A DNA stretch of 64,000 nucleotides from Prauserella salsuginis (GTDB taxonomy: Bacteria > Actinomycetota > Actinomycetes > Mycobacteriales > Pseudonocardiaceae). The DNA is taken from positions 806,001-870,000 of the forward strand of contig NZ_JANBBF010000009.1 of NCBI RefSeq assembly GCF_024648885.1, read 5' to 3'. This document shows positions 448 through 24,948 of the stretch, in pieces. How positions within the stretch are numbered: the stretch's first letter is position 1; each line of letters begins with the position of its first letter. The position numbers were made by a program, and so were the translations under genes. The notes beneath the pieces were generated by a model. It worked only from the letters and a program-made list of their open reading frames with translations. It made no database searches and had not been told where the DNA came from.

Positions 448-3400
448 GTGGTTGCCACTGAGTCGGCCGGTACGCACGCGGTCAACGGCCGCGACACCGC
501 GGTTCCTCGTGGTGTGCACCGAGACGACGTCACGGCGGGCGGCGTCGGCGACCTGTCCGCAGTGGAGCAGCTCCTGGATCGCGCCGACACGATGGAGTGG
601 CGGGCGCCCGAGCTCGCCGCGATTCTCGGTGAACGGGCGGCGAGCCTGGCGGAGGCCTCCGGCGCGAACGCGCTGTGGGTGCGGGCCGAGGCCACGGTCG
701 TTCACGCACACGTCCTGCTCGGGCATCGGGCCTCCACTGTCGGGCGGGCGGTCGCGGCCCTGCGCGCGGCGGAGGACGCCGAACTCCCGGTGATCGCCGC
801 GCAGGTCCGTACCGACCTGGCCGTGTGCGCGCGCAGTGTCGGTGCGCCCCTCACCGGACTGGCCATCCTGCGGCCGGTGCTCACCGTGAGCGGCCTGTCG
901 ACAGTGCGGCGCGCGACCGCGCTGTGTCACCTCGTGGGCTGCCTTGGCACGCTGGGACGCAAGGCCGAGCTCGATCGGGTGCTCCTCGAAGGCGACCGTC
1001 TCGTGGCCGCCGACGCCACACTCGACGAGGACGACAAGCTCATGGCGCGCGGCATGATCAGGCTCGGGGTGTCGGCGCACCGCAGGCGCCACGGCGACAC
1101 GATGGGCGCCGCCGATGCAGCCCGCACGGGCATCGGCTTCCTCGATCGGATGGCCGACCCGTCCCGGGACGGCGGGGTCGCCAGGGTCCGACTCGTCCTG
1201 GAGCTCGTGTGCTCGCTGCTGGACCGCGGGGACGGTGAGCCCGCGTTGGAAGCGGCGCAGTCACTGTTCGACGAACCGGAGCGTGCCGCGGCCGTCGCGC
1301 CGACCGCGTGGCTCCGTGCCGCGCTGGCCACGCGCGTCCTGCTGAGCAACGGCGCGGCCGAATCCGCCGCCACGATGCTGCGTGACGCGCTGTACGGCGT
1401 GGTGCGCCACGACCTCGACGCCGTGGTCGCGCGGCTCTGGCTGGAACTGGCGAACGTCGAGGAACGCATCGGCAATCCCGCCGAAGCCGTCACGTGTCTG
1501 CACAACGCCCGGGCAGCCGAGCAGCGGTACGCGCGTGCTCGCAGTCAGGCGCGTGCCGTCCTGCACGGTGAATTCGGTTCGGGTGAGCAGGCGCCGGTGG
1601 ATCTGGCCGAGATCGTCACCTCGGCGCGTCCGCAGCAGTCGGTCCCGGCTCCGGCCGCGGGGGTGCCCTCGGCCGTCGGACCGGCGTCCGCGCATCCCGC
1701 CGCATCACAGGTCGCGGCCGATGCCCAGCGTGCCGGAGCGGTCAACGGAGCCCCCGCGGGCGGCAGGTCCCCGAAGAGCGACGTCTCCACCCGCGCCGAC
1801 AGTGCGGCCGTGAACGGGCATCAGCCGGTCAACGGCCACGGCCCGCAGGCCCGGAACGGAGCAACCGTCGCCGGTGGCGCGTCGTCGGCAGCGGGCAGTG
1901 AGACGTCCCGGTCGAGCGATGCGACTACCGCTGCGGCCGACCGGGCCTCCACGAACGAACCGGCTGAGGCGGCAGCCGAAGCCACCATGGTGATGCCCGC
2001 GATACCGCGCGCAGACGGTCCACCGGCGGACCGGTCCACGACCGCGGAGTCGAACGCTCCGGCGACCGCGGTGTCGACCACGGACACCGGCGACGCGGAC
2101 ACCGCACCGAGCGCCACCGAACGGAGCGCTACCGAGCAGAGCGCCACGGAACAGGCGGCCCCGGAACAGACGGAAACAGCCCAGCGGGCCGCGGAACAGC
2201 GGGCGTCGGAACAGCGGGCCCCGGAACAGCGGGCCCCGGAACAGCGGGCCCCGGAACAGCGGGCCCCGGAACAGCGGGCCCCGGAACAGCGGGCCCCGGA
2301 ACAGCGGGCGTCGGAACAGCGGGCCCCGGAACAGCGGGCCCCGGAACAGCGGGCCCCGGAACAGCGGGCCCCGGAACAGCGGGCCCCGGAACAGCGGGCC
2401 CCGGAACAACGGGCCCCGGTACGACCGGCCACGGTGCACAGGGCCACCGACCACCCGGCTGCCGACCGTGAGTCGGACGCCGCCGCCGTCTCGCACGGGG
2501 CCGCGGAAACCTCGACGGCGGACCTTCGGGTGATCGGCGCAGCCGGGACAGCCTTCTCATCGGCCGATGGCACGGGGACGACCGCCGCCTCAGGAATTTC
2601 GGACACCCCGGCCGCGGACACCCCGGCCGTGGACGCTCCGGCCGCTGACGCCGCGGAGTCCGACCAGGCGGCGCCGAGGCGGGCCCACACGTCGGCAGGA
2701 GAGACCGATTCCGTGGCAGACGCGGTCGCATCGGGCGGATCGAATGCCGGCGATGCCGATACCTCGTCCGAACATTCGTCCGAACCGGCCACGCCGCGGA
2801 AGCGCCGCCGCCGCGATGTGGATCACGGCTCGGTCACCGCACGCTCGGTGCTGGACCGGCTGGGCATCTCGCCGTCGCGCGGCGGCCGCCGCCACGCAGC
2901 CTCATCCGACTCTCCCGATGCCGACAACGGTGGCGAGGCAGCGTCCTCGCACCGGGCCGCGGATGCGGGCTCGTCGTCGCCCGCGTCGCCGTCATCGGAG
3001 TTCTCGTCATCGGAGGCTTCGTCGTCCGCGTCGCCGTCGACGGTCGATACCCGTGCCGGGGCGACCAGGCCGGCGGGGGCCGACGACCCTGCGAGGTCCC
3101 GCTCCACGGAGTCGGCGGCGGCGGACGTGCTGGACTCCGGGACGGCGGGAGCCAGCGTCGAGCCGATCCTCGCGGCAGCGACGGCGTCTGCGCCCCAGGT
3201 CGACGACTCGACGGCGATCCTTCCCGCGATCACCGACGAGCCCACGATCGGCCCGGCGGCCACACAAACCGGAACCACCGGTACCGGCAACGACACTGCG
3301 GACTTCGGTGCGGACGCTCGCTGGGCAGTTGACCACGGCGCCGGCGATCACAGCGGCGACCGCGGCGCCGTCGATCACGGCACCACGGATTTCAGCACCA

Positions 3401-4428
3401 CGGACTTCGGCACCACCGACTTCAGCCCTGCCGCCGATCACAGTGCCGGTGTGGGCGCAGAGGTCGGTGACGGCGGGTTCGACCCCGGAATTACCGAGAC
3501 CGGCAGTTCCGGCAGTGGCATCGGCGCTGCGAGTGAGTCGGTGGCAGACCCGTGGCTGCCGCGGGTCAAGTTGCCGCCGCCGTTGCTGCCGATGGAAGCG
3601 CTCGCGCCGGAAGGGGAACCGGGCTCAGGGGGCGACGCCGCGGGGGCCGAATCGGACCGGACGACCACACGCGGTGGGGGTGCGCACCTGTCGGCCACTC
3701 ACGCGCTGTCCGGTCACGAACCGGTCGCCGACTCCTCGACAGGAGCTTCGGGGGCGAGCGTTACTCCGGCCAGGCCCACCGACATCGCGCCGAGTAGCGA
3801 TGCCGGACGACATACCGAATCCGCCACGTTCCCGGATTCGGCGTTCTACGACCCCAGGGACGACAGAACGACCGCGACGGAGCCCAGCGCCTCGGATTCC
3901 GTCCCCTCGGAGCATGAGGCTTCCGGATCCACCGTTCCCGAACCCGCCGCTCCGGAACCCACTGTTTGGCAACCCGCTGCTTGGCAAGCCACTTCTTGGC
4001 AAACCACGGCATCCGACCCCAGCGCCCCGAACTTCGACACCGCGAACTCCGACACCGCGGACCCCAGCACGTCGGCCTCCGACACCGCGGGTTCTGGCAC
4101 CTCGGAGCCCGGACCGTCGGAGCCCGGACCGTCGGAATCCGCCCGCCCGGAATCGGGCGTCGACGAACCGGCCGTGTCCGATACCGGCGTGCCCGACCTG
4201 CCACGCCACGAGCTTCCGCTCGACGAACCGCCGGAGGACGCCGGGTTGGCGGAGCTGCTCGCGCGTGCACTCGCGGAGCACCAGGTCGCGTCGGGTGCGG
4301 CCCTTGCATCGACGCCGGGTGGCGACGACCGTGACGGCCACGCCGTCGGCAGTGGGGCGGGCGTGAACGGCCGTCGCCGTAACGGCAGCGCGCACGCTCG
4401 GGGACAAGGCGGCCGCCACGATCGTTAG
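448..4428 (+). CDS. Large TPR-like helical protein with long disordered, repeat-rich tail
   Basis: 1326 residues from GTG at 448, with GGAG at 439-442. Residues about 25-375 are an all-helical, Ala/Leu/Arg-rich domain of the TPR/SARP-TPR style ([20 protein letters not shown], then repeated helix pairs such as [21 protein letters not shown]). From about residue 380 on, the chain is low-complexity Ala/Ser/Thr/Pro/Asp, with fifteen xEQRA pentapeptides at residues 582-656 and shorter runs ([22 protein letters not shown]). A short helical motif near the C-terminus ([14 protein letters not shown]) looks more constrained, followed by a basic Gly/Arg tail. No signal peptide or membrane segment. It lies just ahead of the glutamate dehydrogenase, about 100 bp apart. 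No enzymatic motif is seen; a scaffold role is only a guess. Length should vary between strains because of the repeats. Confidence 0.8.
2191..2415 (+). repeat. 15-bp tandem repeat, 15 copies, coding for xEQRA
   Basis: Fifteen head-to-tail copies of a 15-bp unit of the form CCGGAACAGCGGGCC lie in frame inside the large protein. Twelve copies encode PEQRA, two SEQRA and one AEQRA; a degenerate partial copy follows. Most units are identical at the DNA level, which points to recent expansion by slippage. Because 15 is a multiple of three, copy-number change keeps the frame open, and all six frames stay open here, which produces long false antisense reading frames. Confidence 0.97.
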
Positions 4429-13503: not shown

Positions 13504-14238
13504 GTGCCAGACCGACAACCGAGCCCTCACGGCGCTCACCCCCGGCAGCCGGCCGGGACGGCGTCGGAGGTCATGCTGTGCGCGCCGGCATCCGGCGTGA
13601 ACCGCGGTGGAACGGCTCCGACGGGGCCGCATCCCACCGGCCCGCCGCGCGCGGGCAGGGTTCCCCGAACGCCCGGGGCGTGGCGCTCCCGTGAGGCTGG
13701 CTCCGGTTCGTCAGGCCCCGGCTGGGGAAAGCGCCGGGTCCTGCTGCTGAACGCGACGTTCGAACCGCTGACGGCACTGCCGTTGCGCAGGGCGATCGTC
13801 CTGCTCGTCTGCGGCAAGGCCGAAGTCGTGCACGAGGATCCGTCGGGGCTCACGCTGCATGCCGCGACGATGACCGTGGACGTGCCGTCGGTGATCCGGT
13901 TGTCGAACTACGTGTGCGTTCCCTATCGCGCGCAGGTGCCGCTCACGCGTGCCGGTCTGATGCACCGAGACCGCTTCCGTTGCGCCTACTGCGGCGGCCG
14001 TGCCGAGACGATCGACCACGTCCAGCCGCGAAGCCGGGGCGGCGAACACTCGTGGGAGAACTGCGTCGCCTGCTGCGCCAAGTGCAACCATCGCAAGGCC
14101 GACAAGCTGCTCTCGGAACTCGGCTGGACCATGCGGACCATTCCCCGCGCGCCGCACGGGCCGCACTGGCGGCTGCTCGCACACGCGAAGGAAACCGACC
14201 CGCTGTGGCGGCAGTACCTCGGAGCGCCCGCAGCCTAG
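13504..14238 (+). CDS. HNH endonuclease family protein (Rv2469c type)
   Basis: 244 residues from GTG 13504. The first 75 residues are a disordered Pro/Gly/Arg-rich extension; the conserved part starts at RRVLLLNATFEPLTALPLRR. An HNH zinc/metal finger is at about residues 158-200: FRCAYCGGRAETIDHVQPRS, then ENCVACCAKCNHRKADKLL, giving two CxxC pairs and the catalytic DH. This family is widespread in actinobacteria as a stand-alone gene, and its cellular target is not known. The true start could be further downstream because the N-terminal extension is poorly constrained. It has no restriction partner here. Confidence 0.87.
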   Translation: MPDRQPSPHGAHPRQPAGTASEVMLCAPASGVNRGGTAPTGPHPTGPPRAGRVPRTPGAWRSREAGSGSSGPGWGKRRVLLLNATFEPLTALPLRRAIVLLVCGKAEVVHEDPSGLTLHAATMTVDVPSVIRLSNYVCVPYRAQVPLTRAGLMHRDRFRCAYCGGRAETIDHVQPRSRGGEHSWENCVACCAKCNHRKADKLLSELGWTMRTIPRAPHGPHWRLLAHAKETDPLWRQYLGAPAA

Positions 14239-14732
14239 CGCGTTCCGCCACCACGCGTCCGCATCCGCAATGGCGCGGTCTGCAACGGCGCGCGTGGCAG
14301 CACCTCACCGGCCCTCGTTCCGAGGTCGGTCGACTCTCGCGGCCGGTCCACCACGGCGGAGCGCTGCGGACGACGGTGTCCGAGCGCGACATGCAGCCGT
14401 GATGCTCCGGCCGAGTGTTGTCGGGCGTCCGGCCTCGGGCACCCGTGGGCACCGGGACGACCTTCACTGCCGAGTCGTGCCCGCCGGACAACGCACGCCG
14501 GCGGAACCGAACTCGCCGCGCAGGCATGCCAGCCTTCCGGCCGCACGTGACGTCCTTACCTGCGGAACAGCCCCGAGGAAACAGCGCCCGCGGAACGGCG
14601 CTCTTGAGACGTCGCCCAGGAGAACGCCGCTCGCGGAGGCGTGGACGGTCACGGGTGTCGGTAGCCGATGGAACTTTCGTCGGGAGCGTCGCCGGAAACG
14701 GAACGCCGAGGCGGTGTTCCGGGTCGTACCGA
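14239..14732. other. Gene-poor interval, 494 bp
   Basis: Open frames here have no ribosome binding site, no recognisable family and overlap each other on both strands. I see no gene, RNA or repeat that I can support. It separates the HNH gene from the 3' end of the hexapeptide-repeat gene, so it may hold termination signals for both. Confidence 0.5.
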
Positions 14733-15206
14733 TCAGACGGTGACGCGGGTGCCCATGGTGGCGTCGGTGTCCATCGTCACCCGGGTGCCACGGGTGACGC
14801 GCGTGCCCATGGTGACGCGGGTGCCGGAGGTGACCCGGGTGCCACGGGTGACGCGGGTGCCCATGGTGGCGTCGGTGTCCATCGTGACCCGGGTACCGCG
14901 GGTGACGCGCGTGCCCATGGTGACGCGGGTGCCGGAGGTGACCCGGGTGCCACGGGTGACGCGGGTGCCCATGGTGGCGTCGGTGTCCATCGTGACCCGA
15001 GTACCCCGAGTCACACGCGTGCCCATCGTGACGCGCGTGCCGCGGGTCACTCGTGTACCGCGCGTGACGCGCGTGCCTGCCGTCACTCGGGTGCCACAGG
15101 TGACGCGGGTACCGCGCGTGACTCGCGTTCCGAGCTCTGCGGGGCGGGCGGCGTCGGACGACGTCGCGTTGTCGCTCGTCGCGGCGGGGCTCAGGACGTG
15201 AAGCAT
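14733..15206 (-). CDS. GTRVTx hexapeptide-repeat protein, unknown function
   Basis: 157 residues from ATG 15206, with AGGAGG six bases upstream of the start and a good promoter further up. A 25-residue N-terminal segment (MLHVLSPAATSDNATSSDAA then RPAEL) is followed by 22 uninterrupted hexapeptides: nineteen GTRVTx, where x is R, M, S, C, A or V, and three DTDATM. The pattern of Thr at positions 2 and 5, Val at 4 and a Gly turn every six residues is what a beta-solenoid or amyloid-like fibre would show; this is inference. The protein is strongly basic with no signal peptide or membrane segment. The opposite strand is also open (VTRVPx repeats) but lacks a ribosome binding site. I know no family that matches. 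Confidence 0.7.
   Translation of the reverse strand: MLHVLSPAATSDNATSSDAARPAELGTRVTRGTRVTCGTRVTAGTRVTRGTRVTRGTRVTMGTRVTRGTRVTMDTDATMGTRVTRGTRVTSGTRVTMGTRVTRGTRVTMDTDATMGTRVTRGTRVTSGTRVTMGTRVTRGTRVTMDTDATMGTRVTV
14736..15131 (-). repeat. 18-bp tandem repeat (22 units) in 108-bp higher-order blocks
   Basis: Twenty-two 18-bp units read as GTRVTx on the minus strand. On top of this there is a 108-bp period (six units): near-identical blocks begin at 14740, 14848 and 14956, each with the same odd DTDATM unit. The part nearest the start codon (about 15020-15131) is more diverged. This shows growth by block duplication from the 3' end of the gene. There are no unique spacers, so it is not a CRISPR array. 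Confidence 0.95.
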
Positions 15207-15265
15207 GTGGGCCTCCTGTGACAGGCGGAAGTCAGTGGGGTTGGGAACGTCGGGGCGCAAGAACC

Positions 15266-15307
15266 CGTACGTGTGAAAAACGTACGAGGGTCCCTGACCC
15301 CTGACAA
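15266..15307 (-). promoter_or_regulatory. Promoter and possible operators of the hexapeptide-repeat gene
   Basis: Reading the minus strand, TTGTCA (15307-15302) and TACGTT (15284-15279) are 17 bp apart, a good sigma-A-type pair about 65-70 bp upstream of the ATG. Two CGTACG palindromes (15281-15286 and 15266-15271) overlap and follow the -10, and a GGGTC-CCT-GACCC inverted repeat (15288-15300) lies between -35 and -10. These are placed where a repressor would act. Confidence 0.6.
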
Positions 15308-15500: not shown

Positions 15501-15722
15501 GTGAGCATCCTCGAGACGACCCTGGTCTTCGTGGTGATCCCGCTCGCCATCTGCGGCGTATTCGCCCTGGTCACCCTGCGTTCGAAGTTCGCAGGGCGGC
15601 CACGGTATCGCCCGGGGCAGGAATGGGACCACCCTGCGACATGGTGGAGTGCCAACCCGGTCAGCGCCGGTACGTCCGGCAAACCCTCGACGGACCGAGG
15701 AGGTGCCCGTGGGAACTGGTGA
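15501..15722 (+). CDS. ctaJ: CtaJ-like subunit of the aa3 cytochrome oxidase supercomplex
   Basis: 73 residues from GTG 15501. One N-terminal membrane helix (ILETTLVFVVIPLAICGVFA, about residues 3-25) is followed by the short conserved motif RPRYRPGQEWDHPATWWSANP. This layout and the YRPGQEW motif match the small actinobacterial subunit CtaJ found in the mycobacterial III2IV2 respiratory supercomplex, as I remember it. The last 20 residues look disordered. The gene overlaps the DUF5130 gene by 14 bp, so the two are co-transcribed and probably translationally coupled. It sits beside pepN, as in Mycobacterium. The assignment rests on the short motif and gene order. Confidence 0.65.
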   Translation: MSILETTLVFVVIPLAICGVFALVTLRSKFAGRPRYRPGQEWDHPATWWSANPVSAGTSGKPSTDRGGARGNW

Positions 15723-16209
15723 ACTGGTCCACGACCGTGACGCCGCCGCGGTCGACCCGGCCGAGTTGCCGTACGGCGCCGCTGTTACGGAAAGCGGGCG
15801 TATCTCGCGCGCCCAGGAGTACGTACCCGCTGCTCCGAACGGCCCATTCACGACACAACAGCTGAGCCGTATCGACGAGGCGCTCGCGCTGGCGACGCGT
15901 GACACGGGTATCGACTTCAGCATCTACCTCGGCTCACTGGGCGCCGAGGACTCGCGCGCGGCCGCCGAGCAGCTGCACGACCGGCTCGGCACGCGGGGCG
16001 ACGACGCCGTGCTGATCGCCGTGTCGCCGGGTGAACGGGTCGTCGAGATCGTCACGGGCGCGAACACGACGCAGCGCGTGCCCGATCGTGCCGTGAAGCT
16101 GGCCGTCATGAGCATGGTCGCCTCGTTCAAGGAAGGCGATCTGACCGGCGGCTTCGTCAGCGGCCTGCGCATGATGGCCGACCAGGCGGGTAGCCGCCCC
16201 ACCCACTGA
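15709..16209 (+). CDS. DUF5130 (TPM-like) domain protein
   Basis: 166 residues from GTG 15709, chosen because GAGGAGG at 15697-15703 is spaced 5 bases upstream. The first 45 residues are hydrophilic, then comes a TPM/DUF5130-like alpha/beta fold: FTTQQLSRIDEALALATRDT, FSIYLGSLGAEDSRAAAEQL, DAVLIAVSPGERVVEIVTG and a helical end rich in Met. No signal peptide. The family is actinobacterial with no proven biochemical role; TPM relatives are linked to respiratory complex assembly and photosystem repair. That fits the overlap with the oxidase subunit gene just upstream. Converges with pepN across a strong hairpin. Confidence 0.78.
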   Translation: MGTGELVHDRDAAAVDPAELPYGAAVTESGRISRAQEYVPAAPNGPFTTQQLSRIDEALALATRDTGIDFSIYLGSLGAEDSRAAAEQLHDRLGTRGDDAVLIAVSPGERVVEIVTGANTTQRVPDRAVKLAVMSMVASFKEGDLTGGFVSGLRMMADQAGSRPTH

Positions 16210-20008: not shown

Positions 20009-21094
20009 ATGACGCCCACCCCGGCCGACACGGCCGCCGCAGCCGACGTATCCGAACCGTCCGAGACCAGGCAGGGCAGCGACTTCGCCGTGCTGTCCCG
20101 CCGCATCGCCGATGCAGGCCTGTTCGCCCGCCGCCCCGGTTACTACGCCGCTCGCATCGGCATCGTCGCCGCTCTGTACGGCGCCGGTATCGCCGCGTTC
20201 CTCTGGTTCGGCGACACCTGGTGGCAGCTGTTCGTCGCCGCGTTCTTCGCGGTCGTGTTCGCACAGGTCGCACTGGTGTCGCACGATCTGGCACACCGGC
20301 AGGTGCTGCGCACCCGGCGGGCCGGCAAGATCGCGGGACTCATCGCGGGCAACCTCGGTATCGGGATGAGCTACGGCTGGTGGATGGACAAGCACACCCG
20401 GCATCACGCCAACCCGAACCACGAGGAACACGATCCGGACGTGATCCCGGACATCCTGGTGTGGTCCCGGCAGCAGGCGCTCGCCAGCAGGGGGCTGCCA
20501 CGTCTCATCGGGCGCAGGCAGGCGCTGTGGTTCTTCCCCCTGCTCACTCTGGAGGGTTTCAACCTGCACTTTTCCAGCGTGCGGGCGGTGATCGGCCGGA
20601 ACGCGAACCCGCGCATCAAGAGTCGGGGTGTGGAGGCGGCGCTGCTCGCCGCCCACATCGCCGGATACCTCGGCGCGCTGCTGCTCGTCCTCTCGCCGGG
20701 GAAGGCGCTCGCGTTCCTGCTGGTTCATCAGGCGCTCTGGGGTGTCTACATGGGATCGGTGTTCGCGCCGGGACACAAGGGAATGCCGACGCTGCAGGCG
20801 GGCGAGAAGCTCGACTTCCTCCGCAAGCAGGTACTGACGACCCGTAACGTCCGCGGTGGTCCGGTGGTCGACACCCTGATGGGCGGGTTGAACTACCAGA
20901 TCGAGCACCACCTGTTCCCGCATCTGCCGATGCCGCACCTGCGGAAGGCGCAGCCGATCGTGCGGCGGTACTGCGCGGAGATCGGTGTGCCGTACCACGA
21001 GACGGGGCTGCTGAGCTCGTGGGCCGAAGCGCTCGGCCATCTGCACCGCGTCGGCGAGCCGCTTCGCCATGGTGAGACCGGCCGAGGGTCGTGA
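20009..21094 (+). CDS. Membrane fatty acid desaturase
   Basis: 361 residues from ATG 20009 (GAGGG a few bases upstream); the frame is open further upstream but codes for nothing family-like. The three histidine boxes of acyl-lipid desaturases are present: SHDLAHRQ near residue 90, DKHTRHHANPNHEEHD near 128, and QIEHHLFPHLP near 297. They bind the di-iron centre. Membrane segments lie around them (YYAARIGIVAALYGAGIAAF, LFVAAFFAVVFAQVALV). It introduces a double bond into membrane acyl chains using O2 and an electron donor; the donor gene is not in the window. Resembles the actinobacterial DesA3/linoleoyl-desaturase branch. It interrupts the otherwise conserved order between the DsbA-like gene and rpiB. 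Confidence 0.92.
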   Translation: MTPTPADTAAAADVSEPSETRQGSDFAVLSRRIADAGLFARRPGYYAARIGIVAALYGAGIAAFLWFGDTWWQLFVAAFFAVVFAQVALVSHDLAHRQVLRTRRAGKIAGLIAGNLGIGMSYGWWMDKHTRHHANPNHEEHDPDVIPDILVWSRQQALASRGLPRLIGRRQALWFFPLLTLEGFNLHFSSVRAVIGRNANPRIKSRGVEAALLAAHIAGYLGALLLVLSPGKALAFLLVHQALWGVYMGSVFAPGHKGMPTLQAGEKLDFLRKQVLTTRNVRGGPVVDTLMGGLNYQIEHHLFPHLPMPHLRKAQPIVRRYCAEIGVPYHETGLLSSWAEALGHLHRVGEPLRHGETGRGS

Positions 21095-21101
21095 CGGGAG
21101 G

Positions 21102-21185
21102 CCACACCGTCGCGACCGGAGACCACAGCGTCGCGACCGGAGACCACAGCGTCGCGGCCGGACAGCACAGCGCCATGGCGAGACA
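21102..21185 (+). repeat. Imperfect 21-bp tandem repeat, four units
   Basis: Four successive 21-bp units of the type CCACAGCGTCGCGACCGGAGA begin 8 bp after the desaturase stop; units 1-3 differ by one to a few bases and the fourth is more diverged. It lies between the converging desaturase and MBL genes. No function is evident. Confidence 0.8.
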
Positions 21186-21262
21186 GCACTCAGCGCCCCG
21201 GCGGGACCGGACCGCTGCCAGCGCCACAGTGGGACGTGGCCGCCGATCCCGCTGAGCGCGGT

Positions 21263-24153: not shown

Positions 24154-24948
24154 TCAGAACCCGAAGTCGAACCCGCCCATGTCACCCATGTCGCCGCCAC
24201 CGAAGTCGCCGCCCATGTCACCGCCGGCGTCTCCGCCCATGTCGCCGCCGCCGTCACCGGCATCGCCGCCACCGCCGTCGCCGCCCTCGCTCATGGCGTC
24301 CTCCTGGCCCGCGCTGTAGCCGTCGGCCCAGGCCTCGCCGCTGGGGACACCCGCCATGCCGGCGAACATGGTGCTGAACAGCATCATCGAGCCCAGGCCC
24401 CACGCGCCGGCGACCAGTGCGGGTTTCCACCACGGCTCGCTGTACCAGCCCTGCGGCACCGGCCTGCCTGCGACACGGCCGCCGGGGTAGTAGTGCGGGG
24501 TGTCGGAGCTCGGCTGCGGCGAGGCCTCGTAGTGCTTGCCCTCGACGTCGACCGAGCGGTGCTCGGTGACCTTGCCCGCGGCCTGCCGCTCGCGGTCCTC
24601 CGGCAGTGCGGGTCCCGGGTCGAGGCCCATCGCCTCCCGCGCGGCGCGGACGTAGTAGAGCCCTTCGAGCGCGGTCTCCTTGACGAGTTTCGCCTGCTCT
24701 TCGGTCTGGGCCTGTTCCATCTGCGAGCCTGCCGCGTTGTAGCGCTCCGACGCGTCGGCGATCGCCTGCTGTGAGGCCGTGTCGGTGCCGGTCAGGTTGA
24801 GCACCTGGCCGCCGAGTCGTTCCAGCCAGCGGCGTGCCTCGGCTTTCGCATCCTCCAGCCGGCTGCGTTTCGCCTGCTGGTTCGACTGGATCAGGTAGTA
24901 CCCGCCACCGACGATGATCAGTACGAGGACGACGAGGACGAGCTCCAT
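24154..24948 (-). CDS. Membrane-anchored protein with Gly/Asp/Met-rich tail
   Basis: 264 residues from ATG 24948. An N-terminal membrane anchor (ELVLVVLVLIIVGGGYYLI, residues 2-20) is followed by a charged helical region (KRSRLEDAKAEARRWLERLG, then NAAGSQMEQAQTEEQAKLVK) that could form a coiled coil. A second hydrophobic segment lies near residue 185 (WWKPALVAGAWGLGSMMLF) and the end is a Gly/Asp/Met-rich low-complexity tail finishing in GGFDFGF. I do not recognise a named family. The RBS/start region is duplicated in tandem. It converges with nei. Confidence 0.78.
   Translation of the reverse strand: MELVLVVLVLIIVGGGYYLIQSNQQAKRSRLEDAKAEARRWLERLGGQVLNLTGTDTASQQAIADASERYNAAGSQMEQAQTEEQAKLVKETALEGLYYVRAAREAMGLDPGPALPEDRERQAAGKVTEHRSVDVEGKHYEASPQPSSDTPHYYPGGRVAGRPVPQGWYSEPWWKPALVAGAWGLGSMMLFSTMFAGMAGVPSGEAWADGYSAGQEDAMSEGGDGGGGDAGDGGGDMGGDAGGDMGGDFGGGDMGDMGGFDFGF

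Follow-up and report, generated by a model that had tools for sequence, protein, structure and literature searches.

Arrays of a lineage-specific pentapeptide at one conserved chromosomal place in Prauserella and its relatives

Introduction

Pentapeptide-repeat proteins of the MfpA/Qnr type are built on the consensus A[DN]LxX, and multi-copy peptide precursors are represented, for example, by yeast alpha-factor and the fungal dikaritins. Near-perfect repeat proteins usually reflect recent DNA duplication. Here we describe an array gene from a 64,000-nucleotide stretch of the Prauserella salsuginis genome (the window, to which all coordinates refer). In this gene, silent sites have become scrambled around a word that is fixed copy by copy, yet differs between genera. 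It belongs to a family of arrays of one lineage-specific pentapeptide with short linkers, a variable lead and one conserved chromosomal place. We know of no described system that combines such fixed words with a single element per genome whose distance from the start codon hardly varies.

The family is almost certainly undescribed. The window protein has no match over the curated cut-offs of Pfam or NCBIfam, in agreement with the initial annotation, made from the sequence alone, that no known family fits. Family libraries, fold searches, and phage and plasmid collections returned nothing that explains the array protein. Full-text literature searches (at title and abstract level, with preprints and subscription journals outside their scope) gave no paper explaining the motif strings or the element. 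PMC13123833 deals with a different solenoid, found in Brevundimonas.

Results

A minus-strand gene with 22 hexapeptides

The gene lies on the minus strand between an ATG at 15206 and a stop at 14733 (14733..15206, 157 aa plus stop). It consists of a 25-residue lead (15132..15206, minus strand) and an array of 22 hexapeptides (14736..15131, minus strand). The array had been described as 22 uninterrupted hexapeptides; for frame and spacing this was borne out, for the motif it was not, as 19 units read GTRVTx and three of the 22 read DTDATM. The proposed 108-bp higher-order blocks were recovered by Tandem Repeats Finder as a period of 108 at 14739-15077 (3.1 copies, 91 % matches), and periods of 54, 36 and 18 span a larger part of the array. 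The C-terminal residue is V, so the window protein has no LAA tail. Other tandem repeats were also seen in the window. A 15-base repeat of 18.5 copies at 2143-2419, within a plus-strand ORF of 1326 residues (448-4428), encodes repeated APEQR pentapeptides, and more short repeats of 21 to 36 bases lie at 24173-24290 and 21088-21207.

The plus strand is also open at 14668-15201 (177 aa, VTRVPx), because both frames share wobble positions, and conservation of G, T, R, V and T at wobble-free positions alone therefore cannot discriminate between the strands. Codon usage was examined in 1028 GTRVT units from 66 loci. A sixth codon beginning with AT always continued with G (69 of 69; Met, never Ile), and after TG the third base was C or T in 67 of 67, giving Cys and neither Trp nor a stop. 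The codon AGG was used for Arg 124 times. The sixth codon and the Arg AGG codons mark the minus strand as the coding strand, and a plus-strand gene was rejected on this evidence. The alternative that there is no gene on the minus strand, with either the plus strand coding or the repeat functional in itself as DNA or RNA, could draw on the open plus frame with its shared wobble positions, on the lack of synonymous bias in the lead (see below) and on a strict sigma-70 scan that found no promoter at the window locus on either strand. However, besides the codon evidence, the ATG, the ribosome binding site and the promoter region are kept on the minus strand in relatives, and the silent sites that would belong to a DNA repeat are not conserved, so that we give this alternative hardly any credence. 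The minus-strand gene, already proposed from the letters of the window, and the family it belongs to are near certain.

Upstream region

The ribosome binding site AGGAGG (15212..15217, minus strand), earlier called perfect, is read in the window as described; among 126 catalogued genes it is matched at six of six positions in 64 and at five of six in 52. A -10-like hexamer TACGTT (15279..15284, minus strand) and, 17 bases from it, a -35-like hexamer TTGTCA (15302..15307, minus strand) were read by eye, and TAnnTT and TTGT are conserved in relatives. The good promoter that had been claimed is thus supported by this comparison but was not recovered by the strict sigma-70 scan.

Alignment of the sequences 5′ of the start codon in relatives shows the -35-like TTGT, the -10-like TAGnTT and then a 22-base element, TTTCACCTGTACGGNCCTTGCG. 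The window form (15256..15278, minus strand) is one base longer and has two further differences. With one mismatch allowed, the 22-mer occurs a single time in each of 120 of the 297 genomes of the taxonomic family, and its reversed control in none of the 297; all seven Prauserella genomes carry a variant that the search pattern misses. Over 60 non-redundant elements, identity reaches 88-100 % in 19 of the 22 columns, some of them being fixed by the search expression itself. The element was recognised at the right distance in 109 of the 126 genes (not, for instance, in L161 and L162), and the distance from its CAC to the ATG is 70 bases in 63 of these 109 and 67-72 bases in 108. A structured leader was considered but is not supported, as 66 non-redundant leaders gave a consensus fold energy near zero and a mean z of 0.00 against mononucleotide shuffles, and the element region showed no conserved RNA structure in this set.

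Two further features were noticed in this region. Many relatives (e.g. L056, L059, L083) share another conserved stretch, GCGAAAGGTTGCAACTC, about 40 bases upstream of the -35. In the window, the minus strand at 15267-15287 reads CGTACG, nine bases and CGTACG again around the -10 and the element, a pair that might represent an operator in Prauserella.

Pentapeptide classes, linkers and silent sites

The consensus unit across the family is [GS][TVI]R[VI]x, with Arg central in every class. The 126 distinct genes (PENTAPEPTIDE) comprise GTRVT (83), SVRIT (21), GVRIS (9), GTRIT (3), GVRIH, GVRVT and GIRVN (2 each), and GVRVN, GVRIE, GIRVT and GVRIN (one each), counts that were steered by GTRVT searches and are not natural frequencies. 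Arrays hold 2 to 51 copies with a median of 14 (125 genes, the broken and mis-assigned L008 being left out). In the 83 GTRVT proteins we counted 1472 GTRVT words, and the nine variants shown occur at most five times each, in a count that excluded more degenerate words such as DTDAT. Linkers in GTRVT arrays are one residue long in 1070 of 1389 cases, with R, A, C, M and S among these residues, while SVRIT and GVRIS linkers mostly have 3 or 4 residues, the longest exceptions reaching 35.

When units of the same array were compared, wobble identity was 0.48 in the 83 GTRVT arrays, where class composition predicts 0.46, and 0.57 in 19 SVRIT arrays, where it predicts 0.57. The smaller classes show the same agreement, with an expectation drawn largely from the same few arrays. 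Ser in SVRIT and GVRIS is encoded by both TCN and AGY codons. The units are thus old at their silent sites, and since the peptide is unchanged despite this scrambling, selection keeps the word copy by copy.

In a tree of HNH and DUF5130 (90 loci, duplicates included), members of a class broadly cluster together; several nodes are weak. Two genera hold more than one class: g21 has L063 with GTRVT and L184 with GVRVT, and g20 has GIRVN and GVRVN arrays. It is possible, if doubtful, that the pentapeptides form a lineage-specific peptide code, with up to tens of copies in one chromosomal array that would have to match a co-evolving receptor or be released as an intracellular peptide. Whole arrays would then have switched their code word between genera and kept the same promoter element, which we regard as equally tentative.

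The array and its lead within Prauserella

The array was matched in all seven genomes examined for the genus, and a scan of named genomes gave six loci, five of them in Prauserella species and one in Saccharomonospora sp. CUA-673. In six of the seven members the number of hexapeptides is 22, 28, 18, 17, 17 and 15; copy number, whose variation the initial annotation had proposed to check, thus differs between species. The seventh (G006, Saccharomonospora sp. CUA-673) was left out because of a frame break inside the array; this mid-array change of reading frame (L008/L055) is either genuine or due to faulty assembly.

All seven members have a similar lead, but its codon differences within the genus (46 synonymous, 86 nonsynonymous) show no silent bias when compared with another minus-strand frame (53 silent, 83 not), and outside the genus the lead is highly variable. 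For want of a silent bias the lead is no evidence for the frame. The idea of a conserved lead serving as a recognition sequence is unsupported for the same two reasons, its variability beyond the genus and the missing synonymous bias. A Cys linker after the second GTRVT unit (RCARR...) is common to many GTRVT arrays (e.g. L002-L007, L056-L061) and is kept in all seven genus members.

Chromosomal place and distribution

In the window, the array gene is convergent with an HNH endonuclease gene (13504..14238, plus strand, start coordinate provisional; Pfam HNH) and divergent from the gene for CtaJ, an aa3-type oxidase subunit (15501..15722, plus strand; NF050118, 89.1 bits), which is followed by a DUF5130 gene (15649..16209, plus strand, start coordinate provisional; PF17174). 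A profile built from the lead and six repeats matched 116 of the 297 family genomes, spread over 23 of the 46 sampled genera. Among 60 regions of about 6 kb from profile-matched genomes, CtaJ and DUF5130 were neighbours in 60 of 60 and HNH in 58 of 60. PepN and MscS are also among the neighbours, although not every neighbour is present in each region.

We then used the HNH neighbour as an anchor, mostly in genomes without a profile match (in two of the first 28, G035 and G038, the element had been seen before). Arrays of at least 2 units were found at the same place in 21 of 28 genomes, nearly always with another pentapeptide, and arrays were found in 12 of 20 further genomes. Altogether, at least one examined genome in 39 of the 46 sampled genera has an array between the HNH and CtaJ/DUF5130 genes. 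No array was found in g3, g4, g29, g36 and g37, whose recognised HNH and CtaJ parts are separated by 45 to 130 bases. None was found in g5 and g42 either; there, the HNH match had no recognised CtaJ next to it.

Within the genomes sampled, the family is confined to the taxonomic family of Prauserella, the Pseudonocardiaceae. In 19 genomes outside it, no array was found within 1.5 kb of the best HNH match, CtaJ/DUF5130 being recognised beside only 4 of the 19. A search of 394 genomes of the class for the 22-base element with two mismatches matched two genomes, G050 from the family and G565 from outside it; the latter match is at chance level, since the reversed control matched three genomes. 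The lead-plus-array profile gave 26 matches in the same 394 genomes, three to family members and 23 weak ones to others (E 1e-7 or worse; three of the 23 were glanced at by regular expression), and there was no convincing match by either search in the 391 class genomes outside the family. Weak second matches in the window genome (L018, E 4e-4) and at a contig end of G050 (E 1.4e-4) mean that a single array locus per genome is not proven. A phage or plasmid origin was rejected after searches of phages and plasmids without a match, although low-complexity filtering may hide some matches in the plasmid search and in one of the phage searches; the 43 pattern matches in viral contigs gave none that was confirmed.

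C-terminus, export and charge

LAA or LAG ends the protein in 35 of 126 cases and AA in 57 of 126, with examples such as TCQSDYALAA and GARGDFALAA. All 18 genomes with a full-length tmRNA that was read have tags ending in LAA, and the members with such an ssrA-like LAA or LAG tail are predicted ClpXP-type substrates. The first 40 residues contain no strong hydrophobic segment (largest 15-residue mean 1.60, median 0.38), and the product probably has no recognisable export signal.

The arrays could be multi-copy precursors cut into many copies of one short peptide, as a signal or a modified product, an option that the initial annotation had also named. The units are identical, their linkers and number vary, the word is lineage-specific, and the LAA end of some lineages would feed the protein to a protease. 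However, there is no common cleavage site (the one-residue linkers of GTRVT arrays are R, A, C, M or S), the lead varies, and the surrounding genes are of the housekeeping kind, with no modification enzyme or exporter among them; no adjacent modification, protease or export gene was found in the 60 neighbour regions. We consider a precursor unlikely.

The mean net charge per residue is 0.164 in GTRVT proteins, which would suit a basic protein binding nucleic acid or another polyanion; from the basic charge, the initial annotation had drawn a possible binding of nucleic acid, cell wall or ice-like surfaces. In the SVRIT relatives, however, the mean is 0.010, and some are negative (range -0.068 to 0.117). 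As charge is not conserved between GTRVT and SVRIT proteins, we dropped charge-based binding as the function of the family, and a polyanion-binding protein seems very improbable.

Structure

The residues of the one-residue linkers in GTRVT arrays are not in random order but follow an R-R-A rule, with a lag-3 agreement of z=9.5 (60 runs). With one array per genus from 15 genera, runs of at least three R-linkers occurred once against 11 expected, and none of 1000 shuffles was as low. Such a period of three is what would be expected of a self-assembling beta-solenoid or amyloid-like fibre with a structural role, in which each pentapeptide would be a strand, three GTRVT hexapeptides would form a coil with R, R and A at its corners, and identical residues would stack into ladders. 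AlphaFold2 predictions point in the same direction for an SVRIT relative (mean pLDDT 76.9, 85-96 over most of the array) but not for the window protein (mean pLDDT 57.4). PMC11795689 reports that AlphaFold2 builds confident but unrealistic solenoids from perfect repeats.

Weak sequence matches in the PDB led from GTRVT to left-handed beta-helix proteins and from SVRIT, in two of three, to VgrG. However, order-permuted controls scored as well or better, partly with other folds (one control hit BclA with 9e-6 and LpxD with 7e-4, the other 5vj4 with 3e-4), and this similarity was therefore discarded as a proof of the fold. The fold search had no match at E 0.001, and the linker lengths of the family vary widely. 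A beta-solenoid, which the initial annotation had suggested along with a fibre, is possible but unproven, and self-assembly into one is in our opinion rather doubtful, if less so than a precursor.

Discussion

Our preferred, still tentative, explanation is multivalent docking, in which identical strands centred on Arg would bind one putative lineage-matched partner, or each other. We infer that docking is favoured, with self-assembly and then a peptide precursor close behind. A beta-branched residue, Arg, and then Val or Ile are kept across classes in many copies. The units are kept copy by copy and changed wholesale between lineages, which suggests a matching surface, either on a partner or on neighbouring strands. 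The free variation of linker length and copy number is what autonomous docking units would show. We also count in favour of docking that the word differs between lineages with Arg central in every class, that the promoter region and leader length are conserved, that LAA or LAG ends are present in 35 of the 126 proteins, and that a strong N-terminal hydrophobic segment is absent.

In the docking model, each pentapeptide would be an extended, beta-prone strand, with residues 2 and 4 facing one side and Arg3 and residue 5 the other. Every strand would dock the same kind of surface, belonging either to one partner protein, different in each lineage, or to the neighbouring strands of the array itself. 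The array might thereby act as a sponge or scaffold with a capacity following its copy number. How much of the protein is present would depend on its dedicated promoter with the 22-base element and, where a lineage has LAA tails, also on ClpXP-type degradation. Three observations count against docking. The R-R-A linker rule indicates a geometric, solenoid-like constraint rather than independent motifs; three of the 22 window units are DTDAT, so the fixity of the word is not absolute; and the window protein has no LAA tail. Since nature provides arrays with different words, exchanging them would be a direct way to look for a matching partner, and the family may serve as a natural test set for solenoid prediction in near-perfect repeats.

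Compared with known systems, the arrays resemble the left-handed beta-helix hexapeptide proteins (LpxD, DapD, GlmU) in their six-residue period with aliphatic and small residues, and DapD (3fsx) even has the string GTRVTM in the aligned stretch. They differ in that the window protein stays below the cut-off (LpxD, 26.0 bits against 242.5) and the units of relatives have 7-9 and more residues; in addition, the permuted controls match the PDB equally well. As to a coil of three hexapeptides, the observations are the period-3 linker rule of the GTRVT arrays, a pLDDT of 57.4 for the window model and longer units in other classes.

A scan for DUF2345, the C-terminal beta-helix of VgrG, in the window protein, one SVRIT and one other GTRVT relative matched the SVRIT relative with 49.0 bits (cut-off 30.7), whereas both GTRVT members had no match. 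Unlike VgrG, that relative is a short array of one motif with a lead and a tail; it has no VgrG core domain, its other Pfam rows are below the cut-offs, and the array neighbours are HNH, CtaJ and DUF5130, with no fusion to a VgrG core. In the fold search with the SVRIT model, the functional amyloids FapC (E 0.039, TM 0.12) and CsgA (E 0.22) ranked high, neither of them significantly; unlike FapC and CsgA, the array proteins lack a recognisable export signal and have shorter units.

Multi-copy peptide precursors share with the arrays many identical units, in variable number and with variable linkers, but the array genes showed neither an export signal nor a common cleavage site, and no processing gene was found. 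The Pfam pentapeptide profile gave no match at E 0.1 in the three proteins scanned, the window protein and a relative each from SVRIT and GTRVT. Like the pentapeptide-repeat proteins, the arrays are made of many copies of a five-residue motif, but theirs is a different motif and its units are split by linkers.
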